Source of the DNA: Citrus sinensis
Lineage: Eukaryota > Streptophyta > Magnoliopsida > Sapindales > Rutaceae
NCBI RefSeq assembly: GCF_022201045.2
Contig: NC_068562.1
Span: 6,802,001 to 6,866,000 of the forward strand
Length of the DNA stretch: 64,000 bases
Reading direction: 5' to 3'
This document shows, piece by piece, positions 9,983 to 31,469 of this stretch. The position numbers were made by a program, and so were the translations under genes. A model generated the notes under the pieces. The model was not told the origin of the DNA, did no database searches, and saw only the letters and a list, made by a program, of their open reading frames with translations. How positions within the stretch are numbered: position 1 is the first letter of the stretch; each line of letters opens with the position of its first letter.

Positions 9983-12317
9983 TCAATTAATTTGAACCTT
10001 CTTGATGGTCCAGGCTCTCAGGTTTTTTTTAATCAATATAAATGTCTAACTTGTAGTGATATCTGCAATATTAATCACATGCATAACATTATAATAAAAA
10101 AAGTTGCAATTAATTTCTGTAACGAGTACGAAAAGAACATTAAATTTAATAAAAGAATGTAATCTTTTTGCATATAAATTGATTATTTGAGACATTTGAA
10201 AAATGAAAATTATTTATTAACAGTCTGTTTTCTAATCACAACTTTAACACAAAAATGAAATAAAGTAACAAAAACAAGGAATAGAATCGAAATGGTGGCA
10301 TCACTATTCACGTAATCAACGGGTGAGTGGGGAAGAAGAAGAGAGAGAGAGAGAGAGAGAGAGGAATGTTTTTAGCTTTGAAAGTTGAAGCAAGAAATTG
10401 ATAACTTGAGAGAAAGAGAGACATCGAGAACCTGCTTTTGTCACTGCACATGAGCACTGCATATTTGTGTTGGCCTTTGAATAGTCTGAAAAACACAGCC
10501 GTGCGCTCTCGTAAATCTTCTGAAGCCAAAATCAGCAGCCCAAATGGACCTATAGAACCTTTAACTGATGCACTTTTATGGCTGCAAAGCAACTCTGGGT
10601 TGGTCCTACTTGGTTCCAGAACTTCTGCTTTCTCTAACACCGTTGTCTCAAATGAGATCTCAATATCTGCCTGCAAAAAGAAAAAAGATAAAATAGAACA
10701 TAAACATATTCATAGCCAGAATACCGCTAGCTCTAAACTTAACCAACCTGTGCATTTGTGATGCCGGTGACTTTATGCAATGATACCTCATGCAGCAATT
10801 TGCTTCGAAGTTCTACTTGGTTTCCGCGCAACCTCTTCATTTCTGCAATAGCCACTGAATCAACTATTTTCCAGATTTGTCGAGCCAAAGATTTCGAGGA
10901 ATTGCCTGCAAAATGAGTCCAATATATCAATTGGATGGTTTGTATTTAACATGCCTTGTCCCATTAAAGACAATACATATTGTATAATAAAGATTCAACA
11001 AGCACTATGTAATCCTGAAACAAAGTATTTACTGAACAATTATTCACTTAAAATTACCTGTAATCCCGACCAACCTTTCTTGATATCATCATCCTTACTT
11101 GATGATTCATTAACCCATCCCAATAAAATCCTCCTGTGCTTAGCATTATCATAGAAAGTCTTCGAAGCATAAAATTTGCCGTAATCATATCTTAATCCTC
11201 ATTACTATCATATGTCCCAATTGTGTAACAGTCATGCAAAGTTCTAAACAAGCTTGCTTTAAGCACATGTTTAACATGTTGCTGTTTAATAATCGATGTG
11301 TCATTGACACCCTTTAGGCTATTACTAAAAACTGGGAAAAAGTCGAGGCACTCCCACATACCAGAATGTTTAGCAGAATACAGTGGCTTTTTAGCTTTAA
11401 CCCAATGTATAAATCTTTGCTTTTATATAGAATTGCCAACCCTGTGTCCTTAATTTCGCTTCCTATGATCAGTCTCCATTTCTCACCAGGATCAAGCCAA
11501 GCAGTGCTTGTATCTCTAAATAAACTTGGATTAATTTTGTCGGTGGGTGAAATTAATGGATTTTTTGATGTGTTAATCCACTCTCTGAGATAAAGATCAG
11601 ACAAATTTTTGGGCACAGCCAAGTTCTGCACTTATCTGTTATTTCTGTCAATTCCAGGGTACAAGATGATTGGTTTGCCTCCAGGCAGATTGTGGCAGAG
11701 CTTGACCAAGACTCATTTGATATCTGATGGCTGGATCATGTGAGATCCAGTTAATCAGATCCATTGATGTAGAGTGTCCCCACACAAGAATTTTCTTCCA
11801 TATTGGACCTTTTGGATTGTGTTGGTAGAAAAAGTGATAAATTCCCTCGCAAATCATCGGTCCTGAAATTGACAGGAAAGACTTCTAGTTAATGAAACCT
11901 TAACAACAGAACACTGAACAAGAACAAGAACTATGGCTAAAATATTTAACCAAAACAACAGTGGCGAGAAAACTAAATTAAGTGCAGGAAAGAACTAACC
12001 ATTGGGATCTGCATATCCAAACGCGCCATTTTTTTCCAAAAGGCGGAAACAGGGTACCAAAAATAATTTTAGAGACATAAAAATGAACAATAAGATTAAC
12101 AAGAATCTATCAGACAGAGAGAGAAATACCAATAAATACCAATCATCCAATACTTTGGAGGCTAGAAATGATAACCAGATTTGTAAGGCTGATTTATAGA
12201 ATTAGATTTTGATTTTTGAAGGTTTTTGTAAACCTGGTGTGAAGGTTCAAGCTCAACTGCATCATGTTCAAGCAAGAGAGAAAAGGAAAGGAGTAGACAA
12301 AGACAAGAGCTGGCCAT
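9983..12317 (-). pseudogene. GH32 acid invertase pseudogene (copy A), 3'-truncated
   Basis: Recognisable invertase parts in gene order. Exon 1 is 12317-12140 (signal peptide MASSCLCLLLSF; a stop replaces Gln in YHFQPP, and NDPNG's Asn is Ile). The mini-exon at 12008-12000 is intact. Exon 3 begins near 11868 and its coding matches run down to about 11060, with frameshifts after the HDPAI block and in the middle. It has a deletion where others carry the TKHxYYTIG strand. Exon 4 is 10905-10748, with a nonsense codon in the LWLDKSGK block and a 1-nt loss. Exon 5 is 10670-10432 and is still open. Exon 6 is absent. Only the last residues of exon 7 (SLRAW..KKVQIN, stop) remain at about 10021-9983. 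It resembles copy B most (HFFYQ, AQIN end). It cannot give an active enzyme. Confidence 0.88.
10340..10363. repeat. (GA)n microsatellite in the copy A 3' region
   Basis: Pure GA run of about 24 bp located where exon 6 and most of exon 7 of copy A should be. Confidence 0.85.
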
Positions 12318-13280
12318 TTTGTGGTAGCTGCTTGATAGGTTTTTTCAGAAGAAGAAACATATACAAGCTATTTATATTTGTTCATAGATCGATGAAAAAT
12401 GAATGAGAAAGCTTATATTATAAAGATTCGGTGAGAATTTCACCTTTTCGTAAATGGGATCTTGTTAACGTGTGGCCTGAGATTACATCCTAAAGAAGAT
12501 TATTACCACAATGAATTTGGTAAAAAGATTTTTTTTTTTTTTAAATGTTCATGGTATGGATGGTGTCAATTTCAATCAGGCTTTTGTCAGGTCCCTGTTC
12601 TTTTCTAGTTATTTACTTGTAAAAATCTGATTAAAAAAAAAATTATCTTTAGTCTAAGACGTCAAGATAATCTAATAGAAAAATTGTCAGTTTTTAACAG
12701 GTTTCCATATTTTCAAAGTTTTAATTGGGTAAAAATATTTCCGTGTGTGTTCTGCATTGAAGTATTGGCAGTAGTAATGTCTAATGATCTTTCAAAAATT
12801 TAGCAATGAAGAGAGATTCAGTTAATCTCTTTTCTCAGATACATCCAAGATGATGAGCAGGAGAAAATCAGAGGTTTTCTGATGAGAGGTAGAATTAGAA
12901 ACCCCAGGTTACTGCATGGGGTATTTTTATGATTGTTCAGGTTTTACTTTTGCAATTTTCATATTAAATCAAAGCTTTATATCTTTCTTCTTTTTTTTTT
13001 TCATGTTTCCTTATTTTGGTGATTTGCAACATGAGTCTCATATCTGTAATTAGACTATGTTCACCAAGGAAATATATGACATGGTTTGGCTATTTCATTG
13101 ATAAGGCTTAAGAGGACTCACCACCGAGAGAGCAAGTAACAACATGATTTAGATAAGAAAAATAGTAAAGAAAAAACAATTGTATATTTCTAAATATTTG
13201 TTTATTGTAGGAATATATGTAATCGCATGTCATTTCTTCTTTCTGTCGTCTTCAAACGCGTGGTGTTCTCTTTCTCTTGC
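12318..13280. other. spacer between invertase copies A and B
   Basis: AT-rich sequence that should contain the copy B 3' UTR and the former copy A promoter. No ORF, repeat or transposon end was recognised. Confidence 0.5.
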
Positions 13281-15741
13281 TCAATTTATTTGAGCTTTCT
13301 TCATGCTCCAGGCTCTCAGGCTCGTAATGTTTACCTTCTCAGTTCCATTGTTGAAAGCATACAAGTGAGCCTTGTCATGAATTGCCAAGGTTGGATAAAT
13401 TCTAGCTGTGATACAAGCTTTGCCGCCTCCACCAAAGCTTTCGACTATAGAGCGATCAATCTATATATAAACAACCAAATCATCAAAACTGCTTGTATTG
13501 TTCATGGTCAACTAATAGATTCTCATATGTTAATTAATAGCAACTCACCAGACTTCTTATCGATAACTTCTCATGAACTGGATCCAGATCCAGAAATGCT
13601 CCATAGCTGGTCTTATCATTATCGTCATTTATGGAAGACCTATTAAACCAAAAATAAGAGGAGAGATGGGTAAAAGATATAACTTGCGGCAAGAAATTTA
13701 TTAGAGCTTGAGTGAGAGAGAGAAAAAACGGTCATTAATACCTGCTTTGATCACTGCACATGAGCACTATATGTCTGTCCTGCCCTTTGAATATTCTGAA
13801 GAATACTGCTGTATACTCTTGCAAGCCATTTGAAGCCAAAACTAGCAGCCCAAATGGACCTAGAGCACCTTTAACTGATGCACCCCTTTTGGCTACAGAG
13901 AAATTGCGGGTTGGTCCAAATTGAGTCCAGCACTTCCGCTTTCTCAAAAGCAGTTGTCTGAAATGAGATCTCAACATCTGCCTGTAAAATAAATGGATAG
14001 TAAAGATTTAAAAACCCCTTATGCCCTTAATTTGGCAGTTGCCTATTACTTTAATTGAAGCAAGAACTAACCTGTGCAGCTGTGATACCAGTTATTCCAA
14101 CCATTGATCCTCTCTCCAGCAATTTGGCCGGCCATTTAACTTGGTTACCACGAAGCTTTTCGATTTCAGAAATAGGCCATTGCATCAGTTGTCTCCCAGA
14201 TTTATCAAGCCAGAGGTTCCTAGGAGTTGCCTGAAAAATGAGTCCAAGAAAAGATGGTTAATGATTGATGGCTTGCCACTAAAACAACTAAATGATTTAT
14301 TTTAACAGATTTCTTACTAAAGTGTTACTGATACTATAGTTTCCATATGCTATTATATTAATCAAGATCTTCAAAATTAAGTCGGAACTTGGAAAAATAT
14401 TCAGTTAAACAATAATTATTCACCAATTTACCTGTAATCCAGCCCAACCCTTCTTGAGATTATCACTGCGAGTAGATGACTCATTAATCCATCCCCACAA
14501 AATCCGCCTGTTCTTAGCACTATCAAAGAAAGTCTTAGAAGCATAAAATTTTCCATAGTCATATCTTAATCCAGAATTATCATCGAAGGAACCCTCTTCT
14601 GCAATGTGTGTATCTGTGGTAATGTTGTACGTCCCAATTGTGTAATAGTCCTGCTGATAATTACTTAAGCTTACCTTAAGCACATGTTTAATGTTCGGTC
14701 CAATAACCGATGTATCAACACCCTTTGGGCTCTTGGTGGAAACAGGAAAAAAATCTGGACACTCCCACATTCCGGATTGGTTTGTAGAATATAAAGATTG
14801 TTCAGCCTTAGTCCAATTTACAAAATCTTTGCTTCTATACAGAATAGCTAGCCCCGTGTCATTTATTTTGCTTCCAATGATCACTCTCCATATCTTATCG
14901 GGACCTATCCAAGCTGTGGTTGGGTCTCTAAACGAACCTGGATCAATTTGGTCAGCTGGAACCATTAATGGATTTTCTGGTGGCTTAATCCATTCCTTAA
15001 GGTAAGGGTCAGATAAATTTTTCGGCACAGCCAAATTCTGCACTTGTTTATTGCCAGCATCAATTCCAGTATATAAGACAGCGGGGTTACCCCCAGGAAG
15101 GATTGTGACAGAACCTGACCAGCAACTATTGGCATCGAATGGCTGTGATGGATAGATGGCTGCATCATGTGGTGTCCAGTTAACCATATCCGTTGACGTA
15201 GAGTGTCCCCATACAACCGTGTCCCACAGCTTGTATTGATAAAAGAAGTGATAAATTCCCTTGTAAATCATAGACCCTGAAGAAATTTACACTACACCAT
15301 TACATTATTTCGACCATTATAGATTGATTATTTCTCAACCAAATTAGGATGAAACATATAGACCAAGACAAAATGGCAACAACAACTACCAGAAAAGCAG
15401 AGAAGTACTAACCGTTGGGATCTGCATATGCAAACACACCCATTTGTCCAGGCCGTAATCAGAACATGAGACCAAACAAATGTTAGAGACACAAGTAAGG
15501 AAGTAAAGATTAAAAATTCAAAACGAGATAAGACAGAAATGAAAAAAGATTTACCATTCATCCAGCTACTAGGAGGCTGGAAATGATAGCCGGTTCGATA
15601 AGGTTGACTGGTGATAGAAGAAGAAAAAGATTGACACGTTTGAAGGGTTCTGTAAACGTGTTGTGATGCTTCAAGCTTGACAAAAACATGGCCTAGAAAG
15701 AGAGCAAAGAAAATGAACAGACAGATAGAAGAATAGCCCAT
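13281..15741 (-). pseudogene. GH32 cell-wall invertase-like gene (copy B) with one frameshift in exon 5
   Basis: Exons (minus): 15741-15555, 15421-15413 (9-nt mini-exon), 15276-14432, 14230-14072, 13981-13742, 13639-13549, 13460-13281. All splice sites are consensus. Signal peptide [27 protein letters not shown] supplies the nucleophile Asp, FRDPTTAW the stabiliser, and WECPDF the acid/base Glu. Exon 5 carries CCCC at 13883-13886 where copy E has CCC. The extra base shifts the frame in the QKGASVKG block, giving a stop after about 436 residues and loss of most of the C-terminal beta-sandwich. Without it the gene would be full length. Strand SLSNYQQDYYTIG replaces SLDDTKH, so the Asp/Lys pair tied to sucrose use is missing. 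It could be a real pseudogene, a sequencing error in a homopolymer, or a null allele of a fructan-exohydrolase-like enzyme. Confidence 0.85.
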
Positions 15742-15830
15742 GGTTTGTTAATGAGAAATGCAAAACGCAGACTGCATGTCTTATAGAACGCGTTGTGCTT
15801 TGAAAAGTCGACAGAGAACTGACCTTTACT

Positions 15831-15837
15831 TTTATAA
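15831..15837 (-). promoter_or_regulatory. TATA-like element of copy B
   Basis: TTATAAA on the minus strand, about 90 bp upstream of the copy B ATG (15741). Plausible distance for a core promoter; not tested. Confidence 0.45.
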
Positions 15838-16045
15838 GTCTTTATGATAGATTTTACACGTTACGTGCTATATGGTGTGAATTTCTATGTTTTAACAAAA
15901 TCCATACCAATCCTTACAAAGAATTGTATATATATATATATTTTGCTTATGTTTGATTTCTCAGCAACTCTGGAGTCCAGATTTTGACAAAATCTTGATG
16001 TCCATTTGCAGGAATACTGTGCAGAAATTTTTTGTGCTTCTGTAA

Positions 16046-16726
16046 TGTTGAGTATGAACTACAAATTAGTTATATAGTCAAGTGCGACAGGTCGGTTGAA
16101 GACTTGTCAGTACTATGACATGTCGGTTGGAGTCCCTGAGAAGGCTATATGACAAAGATATTTTGTCCTCTGTGTGTACAAGGAAGACATGTGACTTCGC
16201 ATGTGATTCACTTAAAGGAGACGACAGCTTGAGCTGCCGTTTCATCACTTAGAATAAACAAGATGAAGACACGTGGCCAGGAGGCTGATCAGAAGTCAGT
16301 TAAGGCTGTTAACCTGTGCGGGAAGCTGCTGGACTTTATCACTGAACACAGGGGAAGCATGCTGGTGATTGGGAGACCTTTTCTGATCGAACATTGCTTA
16401 TATATATAGCTCGGTACCTTGGAATACTGATATGTGTGTTAGTCGTAATCTTCTCTAAAGAACTTGTACTCTGTCGACACTCATTCAATAAGCTTGGATT
16501 CACCTTTTTCACAGTGGGCGTAGGCTTCCATAGCCGAACCACTATAAGTTTCCTCTGTGTTGTTCTTTCTGTTCTTTGATTCTTTCTTTGATTTTCTTTG
16601 GTTGTTAAGATTGTTTAAGCGTTCATTCAACTGAGTACTGATCATCTACAATTTTAGATACAAGAACCTTTCTTGAGTGGATCTTGGTGAGCCATTATCA
16701 GTTCTTTACTGGTATTTGGTTTGACA
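16046..16726. mobile_element. solo LTR, Ty1/copia type
   Basis: A 681-bp block begins TGTTG and ends GACA. It is flanked on both sides by the same 5 bp, TGTAA (16041-16045 and 16727-16731). Inside are a TATA-like tract (about 16399-16408) and, downstream of it, the GTGG(A/G)CGTAGGC....CCGAACCAC segment (about 16516-16542) common in the R/U5 part of plant copia LTRs. No internal region or second LTR is present, so it looks like the product of LTR-LTR recombination. It lies between invertase copies B and C. Confidence 0.68.
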
Positions 16727-16868
16727 TGTAATACATTTTCGAGAAAGAGAATAACACATATAAGTTAAGAATAGAGTGAGAAGAAATGAGAAATGATCCT
16801 CTTTTTGTCTAAAATAGTTTTTACTGCTTAATCCTTCACTGTATAATCTTCATTGCAGCTATTTTGTT

Positions 16869-19800
16869 TTAATTAATTTGGGCTCTCTCCATGCTCCAGC
16901 CACTAAGAGTTGTGATTTTTACACCTTCAGTTTCCGCAGTTAAAAGCATATCGTTGTGCCCTATCATCAGTTGCCAAGATTGGGTAAACCCTGGCTGTGA
17001 TACAAGCTTTGCCTCCAACACCAAAGCTCTCAACAGTAGAGTGATTAATCTGCCAAAAATGGTTATCATGAAATGGGTTAAAGCAAAAATCTATAAATGT
17101 GTCAAAGGAGAAAGGAATTGGCAAATAGAGCACAACTGCAGAACAGTTAGAACATAATTTTGCTCCTTGATACATGCTCCTTTATACACGGCTCATTTAC
17201 GCCCACAATTAGCCCTCAGTCTGCACCGGATTTATAGCAATTATTTTTAAATTCTTTTCTTTCCAGTTTTTTGTATAGCAATTAAGTTCTTTCAATTTCC
17301 AGTTCGTAGGCTTGTGTATAGAGCTTGTTCTGTAACTTGGAAAATTAATAAGAGAAATTATTTATTCTCTATATTCTTTCATCTACCTTAGTGTCTGCTG
17401 CATACTGTAGATTTGTCTGTTTTGGTTCTTAATCTCTGTGTATTTTTAACTTTGTATAACCAACAAAAATTGGCCATATTTTACGGCAATGTTAATATCA
17501 ACTCACCAAACTCCCCCGTGACAGTTTCTCGTGAACTGGGTCCACATTCAGAAAAGTCCCATTAGTGGTCTTATCTTTGTCAATTGTCATTGTCCAAGGA
17601 TGACCTGTTACCAAAAGTAAAAATTAAAATATAATGACAGCAAAGAAGAGTTGGAAAACATGAAGTTTGATACGGAATTTAGAAAGTGGAAGAGAGGAAG
17701 TGAAGAAGCTGCTTTGGTCGCTGCACGTAAGCACTTCATAATTGTTTTGGCCTCTGAATATTCTGGAAAACACAGCCGTGCACTCTTTTTAAGCCGTTTG
17801 AAGCCAAAACTTGCAAACCAAATGGACCTAAGGCTCCATTAACTGATGCACCTTTCGGCTACAGAGCAACTGTGGATTGGTCCAACTGGAGTCCGGCATT
17901 TCTGCTTTCTCCAAATCTGTTATCTCAAACGAAATCTCAACATCTGCCTGCAAAACACAGAAAATATAATAGGTAGGATGTGGTGGTGGATCAAAATTAA
18001 GGGTGTCAGTTAGTTTTTGTGTTGGATATCTAGTATGCTAGGCCTAGCGTCACAACACCATTGTCAGTGGCGGATCTACAGCTGATCTGGTCCAGAAAAA
18101 ATCATTTAAACCTCTTATATTTTGATTAATTTTATATAACGACAGAGTTTTATTTTAGTTTCATATATATATATATATCCCTAATTCAGTTACCTTTATG
18201 TTTTCATCAATTTCATATAACAACAGAATTTTTATTTTATTTTCAAATATGTCCCTAATTCAATTATATGTTTTTTTTCCAATTGAAATTAATGACTTAT
18301 TTTATAAAATGATTAAATTATATATTTATTGAATAGATTAAAAACATTAGGGGTCTAAAATGTTATCATTGCTTTAATTTATTTTTAAAAATTTTAATTG
18401 AAAAAAGTATGTCAATGTAATATAACATCGTCTCTAATATTAAAAGTACTAAAAAAAATAAAAGTAATAATTATTAACATTTCCAAAAGAAATTTATGTG
18501 AATTTTGAGATTTTATTTATTAGTTACATTGACTAAGATGACAAGTTAGAAAATAAAATTTATGTATTTTGAGGAGATTTTGATTGAAGAATCATCAGCA
18601 TCTAGTTTTTAAAAAAGAGTCAGAGTGACTGACAAAGAAATTACAGTACCAAATACTTTTTTGCTGGGTTAAATTTAATTTATTATTGAAGTTTTTGACT
18701 AACAATATTTTTATAATTTAAAAAGGTAAATAGATTTTAATTGTTTAATTTATTTAAGCCTCAAAATTAAGTACTTTTCAAATATAAAAGTTCTACTTGT
18801 AATTTTTAATTGATTATAATTACATGCATTGATTTATTCTAACTTGAAACTCTTAATTGATTCATTAATTCTTATATAATTACATGTTATTATAGGTTGT
18901 AATTTCAGATTTCATGATTAAAAAATAGTATTTTTATATTTAAATTATCTTTTGTTTTTTACAATTTTTATATAATTTTTTGTTTAAAAAACATATTTAT
19001 AAGGTTTTTCATGTCTCCTTTATTTAATGTACTTCTTTTTACTCATGAATGTTTATACTCACTTTAAAATATAAAATTATCTTTTGTTTAGGTCAGGGTA
19101 ATACAAACTCCTGAATCTGCTCCTGACCATTATTATACTAAGCGTAGACCAACCTATACAGGCTTTTGTGATACCAGTAATTTCAAGCAATGATCCTCCT
19201 TCCAGAAATTTGTTGGGAAATTTTGCTTCGTTCCCACGAAGCCTTTCAATTTCCGCTATAGGCCACTGAATCAGTTGTTCTCCGGATTCGCCTAGCCAAA
19301 GACTCCTAGGAATCCCTGCAAAATGAGCTCAAGAAACGTGTCTGAATGACTTAAAGATGACGGGCCACTTGGCCAAATGAATGCATAGTTTAAAAATTTC
19401 TCAGTCGACCGAATATTAAATTATTGCTTGCTAATTCTATGCTATTATATATATTAATCAAGGGCCTTTGTTTGACTTTGTTACGCTGACCACATGCTTG
19501 CAACAAACTCACTGAAAGAATGATTATTATTAAATTACCTGTAATCCAGACCATCCCTTGTTGACATCATCATTCTGAATACATGATTCATTAATCCATC
19601 CCCACAAAATTCGCCGGTTCTTAGCACTATCAAAGAAAGTCTTTGAAGCATAGAATTGGCCATAATCATATCTTAATCCCGAAACACCCTTCATTGAACC
19701 CTCCTCTGGAATGTACTTATCTGTTGTAACATTATAAGTACCAATAGTGTAACTGTCAGAAAATGTTTATTCAAAGCTAACCTTGAGAACATGCTCAATG

Positions 19801-20868
19801 TTTGGTCCAATAGCCGATGTGTCGACACCGTTTAGGCTATTAGTATAAACCCGAAAAAGATCCGGACACTCCCACATTCCAGTTTGGCTGACAGAGTAGA
19901 GTGGATTTTGCAACTTTAACCCAATGTACAAAATCTTTGCTTCTATACAGAACTGCCAACCCTTGGTCCATAATTTGGCTCCCCATGATCATTCTCCATC
20001 TTATCAGGACCAAGCCAAGCAGTGGTTGGATCTCTGAATAAGCTTGGTCCATTTCGTTCAGTGCGCAAGATTAATGGATTCTTTTGGTGACTTAACCCAT
20101 TCTCTAAGCTAAAGGTCAGATAAATTTTTGGGCACAGCCAAGTTCTGCACTTGTCTGTTTTCTAGGTCCATTCCAGTATATTAGATGGCTGGCTTTGCCT
20201 CCGGGCAGGATTGTGGCAGAACCAGACTAGCAAGCATTGATATCAACAGGCTGTGATAGATAGATGGCTTGATCATGTGAGGTCCAGTTAATGAGATCTA
20301 CACTTCTTAATAAATCTAGGAGAAGAATTCAAAAGCTTTTATGAGACGTTAATTCATTTTTTGGCAATCAAATTTCAATATTGCAGCATCAGCACACTAT
20401 TATACACTTCTGAAACATCACAACTGAACATTTGAGTTATTTCACGTGGATTATTTATTATTAAAGTTGAGATAAAATGTATATCCAGGAAAAAAATTTT
20501 AATATGTAACTAGCTAGAAAAGAGGGGGGGGGGGGGGACCAACCATTCGGATATGAACTCCATATTTCCATTTGTGCATGCGAAAACATTACATTTTCGA
20601 AAATATAGGAAAAACAAAAAAGTTATCAGCTGAAGCAAATGTGTGAGATATAAACAACCAGATTAAGAAAGAAAGAAAAATGAAATACCATTGAGCCAGT
20701 TCTGAAGAGGCTGAAAATGATAACCAGTTCTATAAGGTTGACTTGTGGAAGTAGATCCAGAAGTTTGAAGGAATGAAACAGAGAAAAGAAAAATAATGAA
20801 CAGATAGAAGCAGTGGCCACATCCATGTATGCTTGTTTTGCTTGAGAAGAGAATGATATGCAAGCCAT
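16869..20868 (-). pseudogene. GH32 acid invertase pseudogene (copy C), multiply broken
   Basis: Exon 1 remnant (about 20868-20689) keeps [17 protein letters not shown] but lacks the segment after the signal peptide. The mini-exon at about 20553-20545 reads ATCCGAATG with no AG acceptor before it. Exon 3 (about 20310-19545) has lost its first part, has a stop at the Trp of NGCWSGS, and has more frameshifts. Exon 4 (about 19320-19150) is fairly well kept. Exon 5 (about 17950-17705) has a frameshift at the QKGASV block. Exon 6 (about 17607-17497) is shifted, and exon 7 (about 17049-16869) is shifted in the AFN(N)GTE block. The intron 4 equivalent carries a 1.06-kb transposon. No functional product is possible. 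Confidence 0.88.
18065..19125. mobile_element. non-autonomous hAT-like element inside copy C
   Basis: 1,061 bp, AT-rich, without an ORF. The left end is CAGTGGCGGATCTACAG. The right end, read inward on the other strand, is CAGGAGCAGATTCAGGAG, an imperfect terminal inverted repeat. Flanks are 8-bp near-identical duplications: ACCATTGT (18057-18064) and ACCATTAT (19126-19133). An 8-bp duplication with CAG ends fits hAT. It explains why this intron is about 1 kb longer than in the sister genes. Confidence 0.7.
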
Positions 20869-22100
20869 GTTATGTACGAGAATTTGTAAGCACTTTTCAA
20901 GCCATTACGTATTTGGTCAAATTGATATATTACAGTTACAAGATGCCGTGTGTGATTTTCCGCTTCACATTTCGGAAAGTCATAAGTCGATCGCGTGTTT
21001 ATTCTTATTTTTCCTGGAAACACTAAGGCAAAAAATATAACTCTTCCCCTGCAGCTTGGATTAAAGTATAGATTTTCAAACACCTTCATAGCTCTCCATA
21101 TTATGTTATTAAGTTTATGTTGACTCTTAACGGTTCATAAGTGTTTTTTTTTTTATGATAGTAAATATTGAAATATTGATTTCTAAATTCTAAGTGTTCT
21201 TATTTTTTAACTGTTTAAATTGAAAGTCCATAAGAGTGTGACTGAGTGATTTTCAAGTAACTTTATTTTATTAATCACCTAAATTTAAATTTTAGAGAGT
21301 TGATAGAATAAAAAATATATTTAGATTTTGTCCATAAAAAAAAAAGACTGTTTAAATTGATGGTGTATATAAAGCCTTTGAAAAGGTTTGAACTTCAAAA
21401 GAATTTCAAGTGCTGGCCTAAGAATTTTTGTATTTTAGTCAAATAAGTCCAGATCAGGTTTGAGATTTAAGCAGATAAGTCCTCATACGTGCAACGTACG
21501 TGAGTCACTTATTCTGACCAGGTCAAACTTCAGTTAATTTTGTTGGAATAAGCGTGAAAGCTCTTCTGGGCTCAACTCGGATACAAAAGGCTGATAAAGA
21601 GCGTCGTAACTTGAGGGATCCTACTGTGCCATTAGGGAGAGGCTTCTGCTAGAACTTGTTTTCTGTAAAGTGATTGACAGTTTTGTAACCTTGAGTTGTA
21701 AAAATTACAAAAGCAGTCGATTTGTTTCTTGGATGGAAGTAGACGACGAGGTGGCTCCCATCAAAATCCTGTGTTTTGTTCTGTTCTTATTTGATCTATT
21801 TATTTGCTTTTTTTATTATTTTTTTTAAATAGCATTATTTTGCACCGATTATTCAACATTCAGAAACTGCTGTTCAAAGATGAATCCCTAATATGAAGAA
21901 TAACACATATTAGATGGGAAACCATATACTAATAACAAAAACAATAAAACTAGAAAACGTTTTCTTTTTTCTTTTTCTTTTTGGTTTTATTGATAAAACC
22001 AATAATTACATTTACAAGGAATCAACAATTAATTAGCAACAAAAACAAAATTTTGCTGCAGCATTTCATTCAGTACAAACTTGTCCACTCCTTTCATTCT
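20869..22100. other. spacer between copies C and D
   Basis: Contains an LTR-like relic at 21541-21858 (listed separately) and otherwise AT-rich sequence with no gene. Confidence 0.5.
21541..21858. mobile_element. short LTR-like relic
   Basis: The 318-bp block starts TGTTGGAAT and ends ATTCAACA, giving TG..CA ends with a short inverted repeat. Inside is a segment GAAGTAGACGACGAGGTGGC resembling the CGTAGGC/CCGAACCAC region of copia LTRs. The flanking 5-mers (AATTT and TTCAG) do not match, so a clean insertion cannot be shown. It may be truncated or half of a rearranged element. Confidence 0.4.
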
Positions 22101-25100
22101 TCAACTAATTTGAGCCTTCTTCATGCTCCATGCACTCAGAGTTGAAATCGTGACAGCCTCAGTTGCATTGTTGAAGGCATACAAGCGAGCCTTATCTTCA
22201 ATTGCCGTGATTGGATAAACTCTGGCTGTGATGCAAGCTCTGCCACTCCCACCAAAGCTTTCAACTATGGAGTGATCAATCTGTAAAACATGTGAAACTC
22301 AGATAGATTCCAGTAATTAAAATTGCTGATGCAGAAAATAATTTTACAGCATGTTCTCATTATATATGATTTTAACTCACCAAGCTCCTTAGAGACAGTT
22401 TGTCTTTAATAGGATCCACATCCACAAAAGCACCATAAGTGGTTTTATCATTATCCTCATTCAAGGAAGACCTGTGCAATTAGAAAGAAAATCAGAAAAA
22501 TAGACTTAATAAAAAAGAAAAAAATTCAAAACACATACAATATATGAAGTTGTGCAAGAAATTGAAAATTGACCTGCTTTGGTCACTGCACATTAGGACA
22601 ACAGGTTTGTTGTCAGCCTTCTTGAATACTCTAAAGAAAACAGATGTGTACTCTTGGGAGTCACTTGAAGCCAAAACTCTCAGCCCAAATGGACCGAGAC
22701 CACCTCTCACTGAGGCATTCTTTGTGTTGCAAAGCCACTGAGCATGAGTCCATCTTGGCCTATACTCTTCAGCTTTGCTGATGTCGGTTATCTCAAAAGT
22801 AATCTCAACATCTGCCTGCGCAGCTGTAACGCCGGTAACTTCATGCAGTTCTCCTGCCTCGAGTCGTTTGTCAAACACATTTATCGGCGGGCTACTGCGA
22901 AGCTGTTCGAGTTCACTAACTGGCCATTGCACCAGTTGTTTCCCGGACCCATCGAGATAAATATTCCTAGGGATTGCCTGCAAAATGAATCCAGATAAAG
23001 TGTCTCTAACAATCAATGATCTTACAACTCACCAAGTTCATAGTTAGTTGCCAAATGTCAACAATTGCAAGCAGTGGCGAAATGAGGACTTTGGTTCAAC
23101 AGGCTTATAATGAAGAAACCACGTATTTAAGTAGGGCTATCAGGTTCGGTTTGCTTTTAGAAAACCGAACCGAACCGAACCGAGTTCATTCATTTCAAAG
23201 CAATCTGAACAGAACAGACCCAAACAGGGGGCCAAAAAAATAAAAATTCATATAATAGTCATTATGCTTGTTAAACTATATATTTAGATCGAAAACTAAA
23301 TTTCTTTGGATTGAAAATTTTAAACTAAAAATTGAAATCCTATACTTGAGTAGACCAAAATAAAAATTTTGTAAATTAAATGGGGGAAAACATTATTTTT
23401 TTAGAAAAAAAAGGTAAATTTTAAATAAGACCCTTTTAAAATTTTTCAACTTGAGTGATTTATTCCATCGAGACCACAATATAAGTTCATTTATACGTGT
23501 TTGAAACGGAGACCTACATAAATGCAGTGAATAATCATTAAATTACCTGAACTCCGGCCCAACCCTTCTTGATATCATCAGCCACACTTTGTGATTCATT
23601 AATCCAACCCCACAAAATCCTCCTGCTCTTGGCACTATCAAAGAAAGTCTTAGAAGCGTAAAATTTTCCATAGTCATACTTCAATCCCGCATCACCATCA
23701 ATCAATCCCTTATCTGGGGTATATTTATCAGTAGTATAGTTATAGGAACCAATTGTGTAATAATCATGCTTGGTGTCATCCAAGCTTATCTTAAGCACAT
23801 GCTTCACATTTGGTCCAAGAGTTGATGTATCGAGACCACAGTGACTGTTAGGAGCCACCGGGTAAAAATCTACACACTCCCACATTCCTGTGTGCCTGGC
23901 AGCATGCAAGGGGCGTTTAGCCTTAACCCAGTTCAAGAAATCTTTGCTTTTGTACAGAATTGCGAACCCCAAGTCATTAATTTTGCTGCCAATGGCCACT
24001 CTCCAAATATTATCAGGACCTTGCCAAGCAGTTGTTGGGTCTCTGAATGAGCTAGCGTTGATGTTATTTACGTTATCTGGTGCCATCAATGGATTTTTAT
24101 CTGACTTAACCCACTCTTTAAGATAAGGGTCTGATAAATCTTTGGGGTAAGCTATGTTTTGCACTTGTTTCTTATCAGGGTCAATTCCAGTGTACAATAT
24201 GACAGGTTTTTCTCCAGGGAGAATTGTGGCAGAACCCGACCAGCAGCCATTGACATCAGATTTCTGTGACGGGAAGATGGCCGGTGGATGTGGGAACCAG
24301 TTAATCAGATCCCTTGATGTTGAGTGAGCCCACACAATGTTGCCCCACACTGCTCCTTTTGGATTGTATTGGTAGAATAGGTGATAAATTCCCTTGTAAA
24401 TCATAGGACCTGAAATTTATATCTCATTACAATACTTGTAACTTGAATGGTAACTAGGAAAAAAAAAATCTAACAAAGAGCCAGGGAAAGACCAATTCCA
24501 AGCTTTAATGAGACATCAACTCATCATTTTGGCAATTGAATTTCAGTCCAAACTTCAAGTATCAGCAGAATGGCAAAGCGGAAAACGAAAAGGCACTATT
24601 GAAACTCTGAGTCTCAAAGAAAATTCTGAAATTTTAATGCCCTATTTATACCAAGACCCCAAGAATCCGAAATTAACAGAATAAGCTCGGATTATTATTA
24701 CATGAAAAAAAAAACCTATAAACCATAATAACAATAAACGAAACAAATTACACTTGAATTTAACAACAAGAATCACTTATGATATATAAAATGATTTAGA
24801 TAAAGATACGCATATTTGACTATCTAAATAATACAATTTTATTGACTTCTTTTAGAGCTTTAAAATATTACATTATGAGCAAATATCTTAAACCATAAAT
24901 AACATCTGCTCATATACTCGTAATATTTAGTATTATACATATCTATGATTTTAGATTTGATTATTTCTTACAATTGAGAGAAAATATATAGTTAAGAAAC
25001 CAATTTGACAACTAGGTAGAGCAAGAGCAAAAAAGTACTAACCATTGGGATCTGCATAACATAATTGTCCACGCCAGAATGATCAGAGGTTCAAATAAAA

Positions 25101-25379
25101 AAAAAATGTTAGAGATAACAAGTCGATTAAAAAAAGTAATGGAAATTAGAAAAAGAAAAATTAAATCGGTGGAAGAAAATTACCATTGATCCAATGCCAT
25201 GGAGGCTGAAAATGGTAACCTGTTCTGTAAGGTTGAAATCTATAATCCCATGGCGTTTTAGTTTCATTTTGAGGAGTTTGAAGTCTGCTGTAAATGTGAT
25301 GTGTTGCTTCAAGTTCCACAATTCCATGGCCAAATAAAACAGTAAATAAAAGAAGTAAACATAAAGAAAACTTGGCCAT
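22101..25379 (-). CDS. cell-wall invertase, GH32 beta-fructofuranosidase (copy D, 580 aa)
   Basis: Exons (minus): 25379-25184, 25051-25043 (9-nt mini-exon), 24409-23547, 22977-22574, 22471-22381, 22280-22101. All are in frame. Signal peptide about residues 1-24 ([19 protein letters not shown]). Catalytic Asp66 lies in NDPNG (split over three exons), Asp192 in FRDPT and acid/base Glu246 in WECVDF. Val rather than Pro follows the Cys, unlike copies B and E (WECPDF). LDDTKHDYY keeps the Asp/Lys pair associated with sucrose hydrolysis. Exon 22977-22574 is the exact fusion of exons 4 and 5 of the sister genes (VTAAQ joined to ADVEI), so one intron is gone. Predicted role: secreted, apoplastic cleavage of sucrose to glucose and fructose for phloem unloading and sink supply. 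Invertase versus fructan exohydrolase cannot be settled from sequence alone. Confidence 0.92.
23163..23182. repeat. (CCGAA)n short tandem repeat in an intron of copy D
   Basis: About four CCGAA units inside a CGGTTT/AAACCG inverted motif (23145-23182). The motif resembles the end of a small hAT-type MITE, but no second end or target duplication was found. Confidence 0.5.
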
Positions 25380-25436
25380 GTTTGTGGAACCAGTATATAT
25401 AACAAATATTGCTTCTGATTAAAGAATACGAACATG

Positions 25437-25444
25437 TATTTATA
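25437..25444 (-). promoter_or_regulatory. TATA box of copy D
   Basis: TATAAATA on the minus strand, about 58 bp upstream of the ATG at 25379, matching the spacing seen for copy E. Confidence 0.55.
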
Positions 25445-25827
25445 CTAAAATCTGGTCAAGATTGAGCCGAATTATTAGCTGAGACACTTATGGACTGCCT
25501 TGCATTAAGGATTTATACTAAAATTTGAGTTATCTTAAATCCTTAAAAGTACCACAAATAAGATTGGGTAAACTAAAATTGTCTATGATTAGAAATTTTA
25601 TATTCTATTTTCGAAAGCAAATTGTCTATGTATTAATAGGTTCCGTTATCTAATAAGACTTTTTGCAAGTGCTCATTGTCAACACATTGTTACTTACAAC
25701 TGTTACAAGTAAATACATGTTGAAATGAAAATATATGCCCTGTTGTTTATTGGCTTTTAGGCATGGTTAAATGAGTCAGCCTTATAGTCTTCTTGGGAAG
25801 ATTGAAGTTTTTCGTTACTTTTTAAAA

Positions 25828-25990
25828 GGGTAATTTTTAAAAACCTCCCCTGAGGTTTGAAGCTGTTGCAAGTAAATGGTAAAAATCATTTTATTTGTAA
25901 AAGGCCCCCTACTGTTAGTTAAAATTTTCATTAACTAACTGTTGATTTTAAAAAGATAATATTACCCCCAATAATAGTTTACCCCCAATA
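25828..25990. mobile_element. fragment of the same MULE family as 36196-37846
   Basis: From 25828 the sequence GGGTAATTTTTAAAAACCTC continues with TGAGGTTTGAAGC and TTGCAAGTA, matching the left terminal repeat of the MULE at 36196 over roughly 70 bp. No partner inverted end or target duplication was found, so it is a lone terminus or an internally deleted copy. It lies upstream of copy D and downstream of copy E. Confidence 0.55.
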
Positions 25991-26425
25991 ATAGTTAGAA
26001 ATGGGATTCTGTAAGAACAAATTTCTTTGTAATTAGTTAGAAAAAACAAAAATATGCGCTAATTTATTTGATTTTTTTAATTGAAATTGAGAGATTAAAG
26101 CATGCATGCATGCATCTGCACAAATTCTCAGTCTTTAGAGCCCACTGCGTGAGCTGGAGCAACAGTTTCTGTAAAACTTATTTTAATTAATATTCTTTAT
26201 TGGGAGCCTACAAACAAGCTGAATAACAACAAGAGTATTCAATGGGAATAGAAATACACTTTTACTCTAATTATAAACATATTTTAGAAAAAAAGGTACT
26301 CTGCAGAAAAAACAAATGACCCTTTTGCTTGTTACATAATGGCTTACTCGCAAGAATCTGTTAACTGAATCTGTCACTAGTTGCTTCTATTTGTCTTCTT
26401 CCAACTCCTGCACCCTTTTCTTATT

Positions 26426-28902
26426 TTAATAAAGTTGAGCTTTCTTCATACTCCAGGCACTCAGGCCGTTGATTTTGACATTCTCAGTGCCATTATTGAA
26501 TGCATACAAGTGGGCATAATCATCAATTGCCAAAGTTGGATACACTCTAGCTGTGATGCAGGCTTTGCCTCCAACACCAAAGCTCTCCACTATTGAATGA
26601 TCAATCTGTAAGAGGAACGTACCATAAAATGCGTTACAAAATTTTCAGACACTATTGAAAATGGTTGACAATTTGCTTGTAGTGGGAATGTTATGGTTAA
26701 CTCACCAGACTCCTTAACGACAGCTTTTCATAAACTGGGTCCACATTCAGAAAAGCGCCATAAGTGGTCTTATCATTATCACTATTCAAGGAAGACCTGT
26801 CATAATAAAACAAGAAAAAGAGTTTGAAAACATGATGTTGGGTGTGAAATTGATGATATGTTGAAAGAGAAAAATTGTAAAGACCTGCTTTGGTCACTGC
26901 ACATAAGCACCACAAACTTCTTGTCTTCGCCTTTGAATATTCTGAAAAACACTGCTGTGTATTCTTTCAAATCTTTTGAAGCCAAAGCGAGCAGCCCGAA
27001 TGGACCAAGAGCGCCTTTAACTGATGCACCCTTTTGGCTACAAATCAACTGTGGATTGGTCCACCCTGGGTCCAGCTTTTCTGCCTTCTTAAAATCACTT
27101 ACATCAAATGAAATCTCAACATCTGCCTGTAATACAAAAACAACCAAAGTTGAATTTTGGGACTTTAGCGTAGTGGGTTAGGACATATTATTGATACTTG
27201 GCAAAAACCCAAATATGCCTTCTTTTATTCATTACCAATTTACTTGCATATAAACATGAACTAACCTGAGCAGCAGTAACGCCAGTAACTTCAATCACAG
27301 ATCCTCCCTTCAGCAATTTGCTAGGCACTTGCACTTGGTTTACACGTAACTTTTCGATTTCAACAACAGGCCATTGGACCAAATGTTTGCCAGATTTATC
27401 TAACCAAAGTTTCCTGGGAATTGCCTGCAAATTTAGTCCAAAGCAAGAGTTTTTAAATTGTAGACTTCATATGCTAGTCAACATTTCCAACTTAGTTAAG
27501 CAATATTCAATACCAAATTACCTGTATTCCAGCCCAGCCCTTCTTGACATCATCATTAACACTTGATGACTCATTAACCCAACCCCACAAAACCCTCCTG
27601 TTCTTGGCACTATCAAAGAAAGTCTTGGAAGCATAATATTTTCCGTAATCAAATCTCAATCCTGAATCACTCTCCACGGAACCCTCATCCGGAACATATC
27701 TATCTTTAGCAGTGCTATATGTTCCAACTGTGTAATATTCATGCTTAGTATCATCCAAGCTAACCTTAAGCACATGCTTAGTGTTGGGTCCCATATCCGA
27801 TGTATCAAGACCATTTAGGCCATAAGTAGAAACAGGGAAAAAATCAGGACACTCCCACATTCCTGTGCCTTTAACAGAATGTAAAGGGTGTTTAGCCTTA
27901 ATCCAATGCAGAAAATCTTTGCTTCTGTACAAAATTGCTAACCCTTTTCTGTTAATTTTGCTGCCGATGATCACTCTCCATCTCTTATCAGGGCCAAGCC
28001 ATGCTGTGGTTGGGTCTCTGAATGAGCTTGTATTGATTTGATTCATGGCATCAGGTGCCATCAATGGATTTTTTGGTGACTTAACCCATTCCCTAAGGTA
28101 AGGATCAGATAAGTTTTTCGGCACGGCCAGGTTTTGGACCTGTCGGTTATGTGGATCAATTCCAGTGTAAAAAATGGCTGGTTTTTCTCCAGGCAGGATT
28201 GTGGCTGAACCCGACCAGCAACCGTTGATATCGGACTGCTGTGATGGGTAGATGGCTGGATCATGTGGGATCCAGTTAATCAGGTCCTTTGATGTAGAGT
28301 GAGCCCATACAATGTTGCCCCATACTGCTCCTTTTGGGTTGTATTGGTAGAACAGGTGATAAATTCCTTTGTAAATCATAACACCTAAAGGTATGTACAC
28401 CCATTACAACAATGGAGTTTTCATAAGCCAACTTTGAATTAAGAAAAGATATATCTAGCTAAAAAATGAACGTCCGTTTGTGTATATAAGATCAATTATT
28501 TCTCAAAAAGAAAAAAATAAAGATAATTATGACAAGTAGAAGAATGATTATCAGGAAACTAATTTACTTACCATTGGGATCTGCATATATATCCAAATAA
28601 TGACACCAAAATTTTTCCATTGCCACAGTCATGACAAAAACCAGAGACGAAAAAGACAACTGTTAGGAGATATAAGGAAGAAATGAAGAGTTGAGAAAGA
28701 GAGGGAAAAATGAAAAGGAATTACCATTGATCCAATTCTTGGGAGGCTGGAAATGGTAGCCAGTCCTGTAAGGTTGATTAGGTGAAGTAGATTGAGAAGT
28801 TTGAAGGTTTCTGTAAACATGGTGAGAAGCTTGGAGCTCAACAACACCATGGCCAAGAAAGAGAGCAAAGAAAAGGAATAAACTGAGATAAAAATTGGCC
28901 AT
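26426..28902 (-). CDS. cell-wall invertase, GH32 beta-fructofuranosidase (copy E, 573 aa)
   Basis: Exons (minus): 28902-28725, 28580-28572 (9-nt mini-exon), 28384-27522, 27424-27266, 27126-26885, 26796-26706, 26605-26426. This is the canonical seven-exon plant invertase layout and every junction is in frame. Signal peptide about residues 1-25 ([19 protein letters not shown]). Catalytic set: Asp60 in NDPNG, Asp186 in FRDPT, Glu240 in WECPDF. Pro after Cys is the cell-wall type. [13 protein letters not shown] keeps Asp273/Lys276, the pair needed for sucrose as donor. The five-bladed propeller is followed by a complete C-terminal beta-sandwich (exons 4-7). Predicted secreted, wall-bound sucrose hydrolase. 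A TATA box lies 56 bp upstream. This is the best preserved member of the cluster and probably its main functional gene. Confidence 0.94.
28572..28580 (-). other. 9-nt mini-exon (DPN) of copy E
   Basis: ATCCCAATG flanked by TGCAG and GTAAGT. It supplies the centre of the NDPNG nucleophile motif. Equivalent mini-exons: copy D 25043-25051, copy B 15413-15421 (ATCCCAACG), copy A 12000-12008. In copy C the acceptor AG is lost. Known in plant acid invertases as one of the smallest exons. Confidence 0.9.
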
Positions 28903-28957
28903 GATGCTGTGGCCTGCAAGGTCGGTATTGGATGAGAAGACCAGCACAATGCAGGCT

Positions 28958-28968
28958 CTATTTATATA
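28958..28968 (-). promoter_or_regulatory. TATA box of copy E
   Basis: TATATAAATAG on the minus strand, 56 bp before the copy E ATG at 28902. Confidence 0.6.
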
Positions 28969-29994
28969 GAAAAATCCAGAGTTGTTGTTTGAAAAAATTG
29001 GAAATGGATAAAATATATTTAATACCATGTGATCCCATTGGTCAATGAAGCTGATCTGCTAGCAGAAAGTTGAAAAGTTTAGAAGAATCAAAATGGTTTT
29101 GAGTGAGAAAGATCTCAGAAGCCGTGAGTTTCACTTCGCAGAAACAAGCAAGTCAGAAAGTCAATATGCATTTTTATTAATTTCTTCGGTGTGTATATAC
29201 AATCTAGCGATGTCCGAGAGAAATAAATCTAATTTAGTGTTTTACACTATCCTTAATCATTTTATAATGATGAAAATTATTTGACTATATCATAAAAACT
29301 TTGAATCCCTAAAAATTTGATGCAAAAACTTTTATAAGTACACAAGTCTGCGTTTTAAAAATTTGATTTGGAAAAAAATTATCTTACCTTAAAAGAAAAA
29401 AAATATTTTGACACAAAATGTATAAATCTCAACTTTTTAGAATAGAAAAGAGTAAAGAAGTGCCTATCTTCATATTTTAAAATTTTCATATATTTTGGAA
29501 AAAGACTTTGGAAAATTTACACCAATAGTCATAAAAATTTTGGCTTTTTTCATCTTAACCCCCCAAACAAACTTCTATCAACATTAGCCATAAAAAAGCC
29601 TTTGAGACCAAAATACCCCTCTCTCTCATCTCCATAATGTTGGTGAGCTTGCCTTGGCGCAACAACTCGCCGATTCTGTCAAGCCTTTAAATCAGCCATG
29701 GCGGCAATAGAAACACGCTCCATTTCGGAAATGGCGTCGTCAGAGATTTTGGACTCGGTTTCACTGACCTCGTAATCTTCAAGATCAGAGAAGCTCGTTC
29801 TGTCTCGGACTTCCCTACGTGGGCTGCCGGAAGAGATGAAGGCGTTGGTGAATCTGAGATATTTGAATTTGTAATAAATGGGTGCGAAGTGAAGGACTTG
29901 ACGTGGCTTGTTTTTGTTCCAAACCTCCAGCAGCTAGATATAAGTTTGGTTTAGAAGAATTGAAGAGCATATGTTGGAGCTCGTTGCCTGGAAG

Positions 29995-31010
29995 TGTTGG
30001 TGCGACAGGCACCTGTCGCACCAAGGCCATTTGGTGACCACTTGGTGCGACATGCCATTTCTTCTTCTTGCTTTCACCTTCTGCACCTGTCGCACCAAGG
30101 CCATTTGGTGACCACTTGGTGCGACAGGCCATTTCTTCTTCTTACTTTCACGTGCAATATATTCTCCCATTCTAAGCCAAGTCACGGGCCGGCCACCAAA
30201 GCATTTTGTATTCACGGCAGCTCAGCTTCTGTCTGCAGCTAGCTTAAAGCCATTGACAGCTGAAACTCTCCTGGAACCAGGGCGTATTTATTTTGTACTG
30301 CCAGCCTCAACATTCGGAAATGAATTTTCTCCTATTGACTTGGCAGGTATTGTGAAAAAGCTCACAGCGCAAGCCAAATCCGCTGGCAAATCTCAGGCTA
30401 ATAATTCACCCAGAAGAAAAACTCTGTCACCAAATCCGTACAGCCGTAGTTCATCAAGCCCGGCTTGGAACTTGCCAACCAGAAGCCCAAATCGGATGGC
30501 CGACGGCGTTGAGAAGGTCTCCTGTAAAACGATCTTGGAGGCCTATTTTGGACACGATTAGAGAGATGTCTTTCAGGAGGAGTCATTCAGATTTACAAGA
30601 AGTCCTCGTATTGCAAGATTCGAAGACCATGTAACGTCCCATGTACTTCTGTTTGTAAATTGACTACAAATTTTAATAAAGTAAAACTGTTATTGTAGAG
30701 TAGAGTGAGGCGCAACAAACATGCATGCTCTTACTTTGTTATTTAGGTTTGGAGTATTGTAATTTGTAATCACTGGCTTAATTCGAATTCTACAGAAGTC
30801 AATGAATAATTAGCTTTAGATGAGCTCGGTGTTCTCTCTTTGGTGGTCGGCCCGTGACTTGGCTTAGAATGGGAGAATATATTGCACGTGAAAGTAAGAA
30901 GAAGAAATGACCTTGGTGCGACAGGTGCAGAAGGTGAAAGCAAGAAGAAGAAATGGCCTGTCGCACCAGTGGTCACCAAATGGTCAAGTTTTGGTGCGAC
31001 AGGTGCCTGT
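29995..31010. repeat. long inverted repeat inside the Pack-MULE
   Basis: The left arm (about 29999-30215) and right arm (about 30838-31018) are near-identical in opposite orientation. Both contain the ordered landmarks TGCGACAGGTGC, AAGAAGAAGAAATGG, GAGAATATATTGCACGTG, AAGCCAAGTCACGGG (given in one orientation). The loop of about 620 bp holds the PADRE fragment. Read-through RNA would fold into a long hairpin. Confidence 0.82.
30243..30634 (+). pseudogene. captured 3' exon of a PADRE (DUF4228) gene
   Basis: The opening LKPLTAETLLEPGRIYFVLP, followed by FSPIDLAGIVKKLTAQAKSAG, is the C-terminal half of a PADRE domain. PADRE proteins are small plant proteins often responsive to pathogens and stress. 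The frame is lost once near 30500-30530; after it the typical tail (WRPILDTIREMSFRRSHSDLQE) resumes and ends with a stop at 30632-30634. AATAAA at 30675-30680 suggests the donor gene's 3' UTR was captured too. The upstream exon and start are missing. A stretch ending in TGTCTGCAG just before the homology looks like the donor gene's intron acceptor. Confidence 0.75.
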
Positions 31011-31140
31011 CGCACCAAGTTTAGGTGCGACAGGCTGCATGTCGCACCAAGTTTTGGTGCGACAGGCTGCCTGTCGCTCCAAGTTTCGTGCGACAGGCTG
31101 CATGTCGCACCAAGTTTCGTGCGACAGGCAGCCTGTCGCC
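30993..31140. repeat. five tandem 31-32-bp palindromic units
   Basis: Units start at 30993, 31024, 31056, 31087 and 31118. Each has GTGCGACAGG, a 2-6-nt centre, then CCTGTCGCAC (or the CATGTCGCAC / CTGTCGCTCC variants) and a CAAGTTT linker. Each unit is itself a near-perfect palindrome, and the same core caps the long inverted repeat arms. Confidence 0.85.
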
Positions 31141-31469
31141 ATATTCACCCCGACTCGCAGTTCACTGAAACTCTCGAGCAAGTTCAGAAAATAACTCATA
31201 CCACTATGTGATGCCGATTAGTGTTGGATCCGGATAGATTATAATCGGATTTCACTTTTATCGTTGTCTTTTATCGCCGCCGTTGGTTGATGATTCAAGA
31301 GTGGAAAGCTGCCTTTGGTTTGACGAAAGTTGTTTTTTGTTTGTAAAGAAGGGTAATTTGGAGAGAAAAGCCTGTATTTGGCTAATGTTGATAGAAAAAA
31401 GTTGAGAGGGTTAATTATGAAAATAACAAAAATTTTATGGTTATTTTCATAAATTTCCCGAAGACTTTT

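Follow-up and report, generated by a model that had tools for sequence, protein, structure and literature searches.

A mosaic Pack-MULE of Citrus sinensis that probably gained host-gene pieces stepwise, with fold-back template switching around its newest capture

How a transposable element of Citrus sinensis came to enclose a piece of a PADRE gene between long internal inverted repeats, and whether this arrangement could serve any function, are the questions raised by the locus considered here, which lies in a stretch of 64,000 nucleotides (C7:6802001-6866000, hereafter the window) and was compared with a genome of 11 contigs and 300 Mb. The explanation we consider probable, taken as a whole capture history, is that positions 29510-31459 of the window are a 1,950-bp non-autonomous Mutator-like element, a Pack-MULE, which would have gained host DNA stepwise, with template switching that included a fold-back. 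The outline of the element is as follows:

29501-29509, no strand: left target-site duplication (TSD), read as AAAGACTTT
29510-29632, plus strand: left terminal inverted repeat (TIR) of L type, which recurs in the genome and pairs with the right TIR
31335-31459, minus strand: right TIR of R type, which pairs with the left TIR
31460-31468, no strand: right target-site duplication, read as GAAGACTTT

GGAAAATTTACA opens the left end at 29510 and the right end falls at 31459; the original prediction had recognized a real element here but placed it at 29511..31460, one base off. The ~125-bp TIRs at the two ends, one per end in the TIR scan, share 73% identity over 114 bp, and both end types are found repeatedly elsewhere in the genome. 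The TIRs and the target duplication, with AAAGACTTT and GAAGACTTT agreeing at 8/9 positions, had both been claimed in advance and both are present. Paired MULE-type TIRs, a duplication of the 8-11-bp class and captured fragments are thus all found in this one element, while the scanned listed frames gave no match to a transposase. What bears out the reading as a Pack-MULE with PADRE sequence is the pair of TIRs, the TSD, the large number of copies with matching ends and the existence of a source gene whose frame is open. No second (empty) site was recovered within the window, with which the joined element flanks were compared; similarity of the left flank in the window is confined to about 28656-28903 and stops short of the insertion point.

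The left end, when searched against the genome, gave 422 candidates at first look, and the matches listed from the best 40 scored number 41, namely the element itself, 39 other places at 93-97% identity and one at 77%; the search with the whole element gave 225 matches. The original prediction had called for a search of the host genome for same-end copies and for the parental PADRE gene, and it yielded many of the former and the latter at C9:31904511. Ends in the family start with GGGAAATTTA or close variants. Nineteen elements could be bounded, comprising the window copy, 16 with both ends in one locus, L007, whose far end was taken from L066, and L065, which was counted up to its first right end; this sample is biased toward short elements and those resembling the window copy. 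When shifts of up to 2 bp per end were permitted in scoring (L018 uses 2 bp at both), the TSDs of these 19 were perfect in 13, had one mismatch in five (the window element, L005, L008, L018 and L029) and were lacking in one, L065.

By sequence comparison, the window element is a mosaic of ribose-5-phosphate isomerase (RPI), EXO70, leucine-rich-repeat (LRR), ammonium transporter (AMT) and PADRE pieces, the four host-gene pieces beyond PADRE having been absent from the original prediction. The PADRE, AMT, EXO70 and RPI pieces have separate source genes on C9, C3, C8 and C2, respectively. The pieces and associated segments are these:

29628-29682, minus strand (antisense): RPI fragment of 55 bp, 96% identical over 55 bp to a source near C2:24865727 (L030)
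29683-29802, minus strand (antisense): EXO70 fragment of 120 bp, 96% identical over 120 bp to its source at C8:28465813 (L028)
29803 to about 29991, plus strand: LRR fragment with approximate boundaries, 97-98% identical to L004 on both sides of a gap
30151-30179, minus strand: 3' end of AMT, 29 bp, exact to C3:43462060-43462088
30175-30840, plus strand: captured PADRE piece of 666 bp, with source codons 39-190 and 3' flank, its frame broken
30659-30713, plus strand: 55-bp segment with AATAAA, missing from the present C9 source locus (L002, C9:31904993)
31019-31145, no strand: array of 31-32-bp palindromic units adjoining the right arm of the inverted repeat, with similar sequence in many relatives, a recurrence that the original prediction had not mentioned

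Pfam supports the source frames of RPI (L030, PF06026, E 3e-60), EXO70 (L028, Exo70_C, E 5e-118), AMT (PF00909, E 2.5e-19) and PADRE (PF14009, E 2e-26). The LRR piece, which we take to be of the NB-LRR type, is represented in L004 by a frame that matches LRR_14 at E 4e-7 and 29.7 bits, under the 40-bit curated cut-off; the genome search gave no close source for it, matches outside the family reaching 64-70% when longer and up to 95% when shorter, mostly on C7. The window version is without about 412 bp, at 29866-29871, that L004 and L005 possess. The 29 bp of AMT are the final coding bases, the stop codon and 21 bp beyond, and a pattern search that permitted up to three mismatches found them at four places, all exact, which are the two arms of the inverted repeat, L007 and the C3 AMT gene.

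The PADRE source on C9 reads without interruption through 190 codons, beginning with an ATG (L002:1387-1956). Segments 30175-30658 and 30714-30840 of the window are identical to C9:31904511-31905118 at 476/484 and 126/127 positions, which amounts to 8 mismatches and 1 gap over 611 columns. What was taken from the source comprises codons 39-190 (152 codons), the stop and 149 bp beyond, the start codon being left behind. The capture of PADRE sequence therefore stands, now with a source gene, but its earlier description as a 3' half or 3' exon does not, since 152 of 190 codons with the stop and 3' flank make up about 80% of the frame. Likewise, the AATAAA poly(A) signal is present as had been noted, but sits in the 55 bp missing from the present source; either this segment was later lost at the source, or the donor was another allele, or the element gained it, and the transposon may preserve an older PADRE 3' flank.

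Some members of the family carry TIR-RPI-EXO70, and others have the LRR piece added. The EXO70 piece measures 564 bp in L029, which gave no match to RPI, while L025 has RPI with 532 bp of EXO70. In L014, RPI and 120 bp of EXO70 are accompanied by the first part of the LRR piece, of which L004 and L005 have the long version. The RPI/EXO70 joint lies at the identical base in L025, L014, L004, L005 and the window copy, and EXO70 ends at the identical base in the last four of these, L025 continuing to its 532 bp. The window copy combines an L004-like left half with an L007-like unit that carries the beginning of an AMT piece, and with the 666 bp of PADRE: the palindromic unit comes with an L004-like U unit that extends to 30082, and the second U unit is L007-like. 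L007 itself holds 618 bp of the AMT gene at 99%, of which the window copy has only the first 29 bp. Among the matches listed (best 40 scored candidates), the PADRE part occurs only in the window and on C9. Apart from this series, L004:2489-2730 looks like a further likely gene fragment past the U unit, with an antisense frame containing VIKCRKHPKHKQSPGVCSLCLRDKLSQL, and L014:1497-2534 has an additional long open antisense frame beside its RPI, EXO70 and LRR start.

The inverted repeat that surrounds the PADRE piece consists of two arms:

29997-30201, plus strand: left arm, with the palindromic unit, two tandem U units (L004-like, then L007-like), the 29 bp of AMT and the first 27 bp of PADRE
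30838-31018, minus strand: right arm, a reversed copy of the chimeric left arm, with the 27 bp of PADRE, the 29 bp of AMT, both U units and the palindromic unit

The arms measure 205 and 181 nt around a loop of 637 nt and are identical at 172/176 aligned positions, with indels of 5, 1 and 28 nt, the last being 28 nt missing from the second U unit of the right arm. The best ungapped inverted pair is 30126-30201/30838-30913 (76 nt, 97%), followed by 30043-30106/30905-30968 (64 nt, 97%). In the structure predicted for 29997-31018 the two arms are paired, at a minimum free energy of -518 kcal/mol given without a shuffled baseline; the earlier view that they could fold around PADRE is upheld by this pairing and by the arm identity. 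At one PADRE position, where the source has G (in CGCC), both arms have A, which is what copying of one arm from the other, or a later change in the source, would give; a second position deviates in the right arm alone. A scan for internal inverted repeats (BLAST E 1e-3, TIR pairs excluded) found one with a loop of at least 200 nt only in the window copy among the 19 bounded elements, the 18 other relatives being without any, and the nested hairpin is thus indeed unusual within this small sample of the family. No-loop self-inverted matches of at least 80 nt occur in 12 of the 19 (an AT-rich match in L007 left out), and in several relatives these apparently correspond to the array of 31-32-bp palindromic units of the window element.

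How might such a structure arise? We suppose that, during repair or replication of the element, DNA synthesis would have switched from AMT to PADRE at AGCCA, the 5 bp that both share at their joint, and continued into the PADRE 3' flank. At 30838-30840 it would then have reversed onto the complementary strand, using the CTT (3 bp) that is common to both templates, recopied PADRE-AMT-U in reverse, and reached an R-type end by way of a palindromic unit. In the right arm, the parts resembling L004 and L007 stand in the same order as in the left, which argues that the right arm was copied after those parts had been joined. The setting of the switch would be either gap repair after excision or a stalled fork, and the hairpin would be a by-product of capture. 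PADRE capture and fold-back may have been one event, as the few differences between the arms (4/176) and from the PADRE source would allow; one event and two look alike here, since the matches listed include no PADRE copy without the fold-back. Counted against this explanation are the joint overlaps of only 3-5 bp, the blunt RPI/EXO70 joint and the right end, which differs by about 9-10% from the closest relatives, too much to point to a donor.

The family transposase would finally have inserted the product upstream of an invertase-like gene, whose likely ATG (near 28902, minus strand) is about 600 bp from the left end, and the element could possibly affect the promoter of this gene. We read as one invertase-like gene the frame 27510-28400, which matches Glyco_hydro_32N at E 7e-90, together with the frame 28663-29028, which contains the likely ATG and has no Pfam match. 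The first-exon region of this gene, 28656-28903, has four more matches of 70-78% at 12112, 15476, 20663 and 25178, and another frame that looks like GH32 occupies 23538-24404; the window from 12112 to 28949 probably holds tandem invertase-like genes.

The inverted repeat might instead have arisen from one MULE inserting in another in opposite orientation, with subsequent loss of ends, and the abundance of the family and the contribution of sequence by two different relatives would fit such a history. Both arms, however, terminate inside PADRE with the identical chimeric order, and the TIR scan of the window gave only the outer ends and a weak 38-bp match inside the right TIR, with no internal ends seen; we therefore disfavor nested insertion and consider it improbable. 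A different question is whether a chimeric gene is expressed from the captured PADRE piece and gives a product of its own. A 102-aa frame from TTG does stay open and matches PF14009 at E 4e-6 and 27.8 bits, under the 29.6 cut-off, but the captured PADRE frame suffered a 1-nt insertion, meets a stop at 30559-30561 and came without the start codon of the source, and of all the readings considered here this is the one we would least expect to hold.

The original prediction had proposed that the hairpin could make double-stranded RNA and small RNAs acting on parental PADRE genes. The strong predicted pairing of the arms, the 98-99% identity of the captured PADRE to its source and the description of captured sequences as siRNA reservoirs in maize, in a review (PMC13317346), would suit a diced hairpin transcript silencing the source gene. 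The anatomy speaks against it, because PADRE occupies the loop and contributes only 27 bp to the stem: when the 476 distinct stem 21-mers of both strands were compared with the source loci and 18 relatives, 0/476 were exact to the PADRE source, the best being nine arm 21-mers within 1 mismatch. We hold this route to be highly unlikely. As 427/616 loop 21-mers are exact to the source, silencing of PADRE by a route independent of the hairpin would be possible. If the small-RNA idea is valid, the stem counts direct it away from PADRE and toward AMT and certain sister elements, with exact matches of 18 stem 21-mers to the AMT locus, 162 to L007, 132 to L004, 60 to L005, 18 each to L037, L047, L049 and L050, and 12 to L003. 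A precedent would be Mu killer of maize, which, according to PMC3440606, is a partial inverted duplication of transposase and TIRA sequence proposed to make hairpin RNA; Mu killer and the window element both have an inverted duplication in MULE-derived sequence with a potential hairpin RNA, whereas the stem in the window consists of family repeats and short gene scraps. At least one stem 21-mer is common to 8/18 relatives, but 10/18, including the transposase-bearing L065, have none, which implies a narrow reach across the family; the AMT match is limited to the stop codon and 3' flank, and no transcript is known. That the hairpin targets the AMT gene or sister MULEs, in the way proposed for Mu killer and MuDR, seems to us very unlikely. 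A related and still unlikely thought is that the fold-back, by putting the AMT end and MULE repeats in a long and almost perfect stem, created a young proto-small-RNA gene with AMT and sister Pack-MULEs as possible targets of silencing; if true, it would be a snapshot of template-switch capture creating new hairpin RNA genes.

Returning to the capture history that we favor, a transposase for the family was looked for among 12 PF10551 loci, none of which has TIRs of the window element within 3,285 bp. L065 (from C1:7729888, in the locus C1:7729700-7738100), which the searches with the ends gave instead, carries the same ends as the window element, and its frames between the ends match DUF1985, Peptidase_C48 (Ulp1-like) and SWIM, as well as DBD_Tnp_Mut together with the first part of the MULE domain. 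Five R-type ends follow in tandem in the fetched stretch, with CTTGGTGTTCATAT after four of the five and CTTCGTGTTCATAT after one. None of the five right ends read gives a matching TSD, the transposase frames are split in the plain ORF list, and the place is absent from the PF10551 search rows (best 150 of 899 candidates scored), for which reasons L065 is only a putative active transposase source of the family.

Pack-MULEs with several captured genes are known. They are touched on in PMC13317346, and the window element, with TIRs, a 9-bp-type TSD and several host-gene fragments with identifiable sources, is of this kind already described, with a clear capture history, and differs in that its newest capture is enclosed by an internal fold-back. 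The gap-filling and FoSTeST models of Pack-TIR elements, as given in PMC8277862, invoke short shared sequence at joints and chimeric fillers; the window element likewise has short joint overlaps and a chimeric filler, whereas those models concern animals and the plant element would have required successive switches and one strand reversal. The Ulp1-carrying (KIU) MULEs that appear in PMC13317346 resemble L065 in its DUF1985, Peptidase_C48, MuDR transposase and SWIM, but are there non-TIR Vandals with VANC, in contrast to the ~125-bp TIRs of the window family. MULEs with multiple TIRs, described in PMC3310237, are similar to L065 with its five tandem R-type ends and unlike the window element with its single TIR per end. 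CitMule of clementine (PMC4334395) is also a MULE with a 9-bp TSD, but differs in its published description, which gives it a FAR1 domain and TIRs that are short and degenerate. No paper listed in the literature searches, a scope that left most subscription papers outside, describes the window element itself, which does not imply that it is unpublished.

The order of captures can still be read from the family, with EXO70 and RPI first, LRR next, and AMT and PADRE last, and its relatives and most of the sources survive in one genome, the last capture step probably including a strand reversal. This combination makes a template-switch account of Pack-MULE capture directly testable, and with it the question of how frequently capture by template switching would give inverted repeats.
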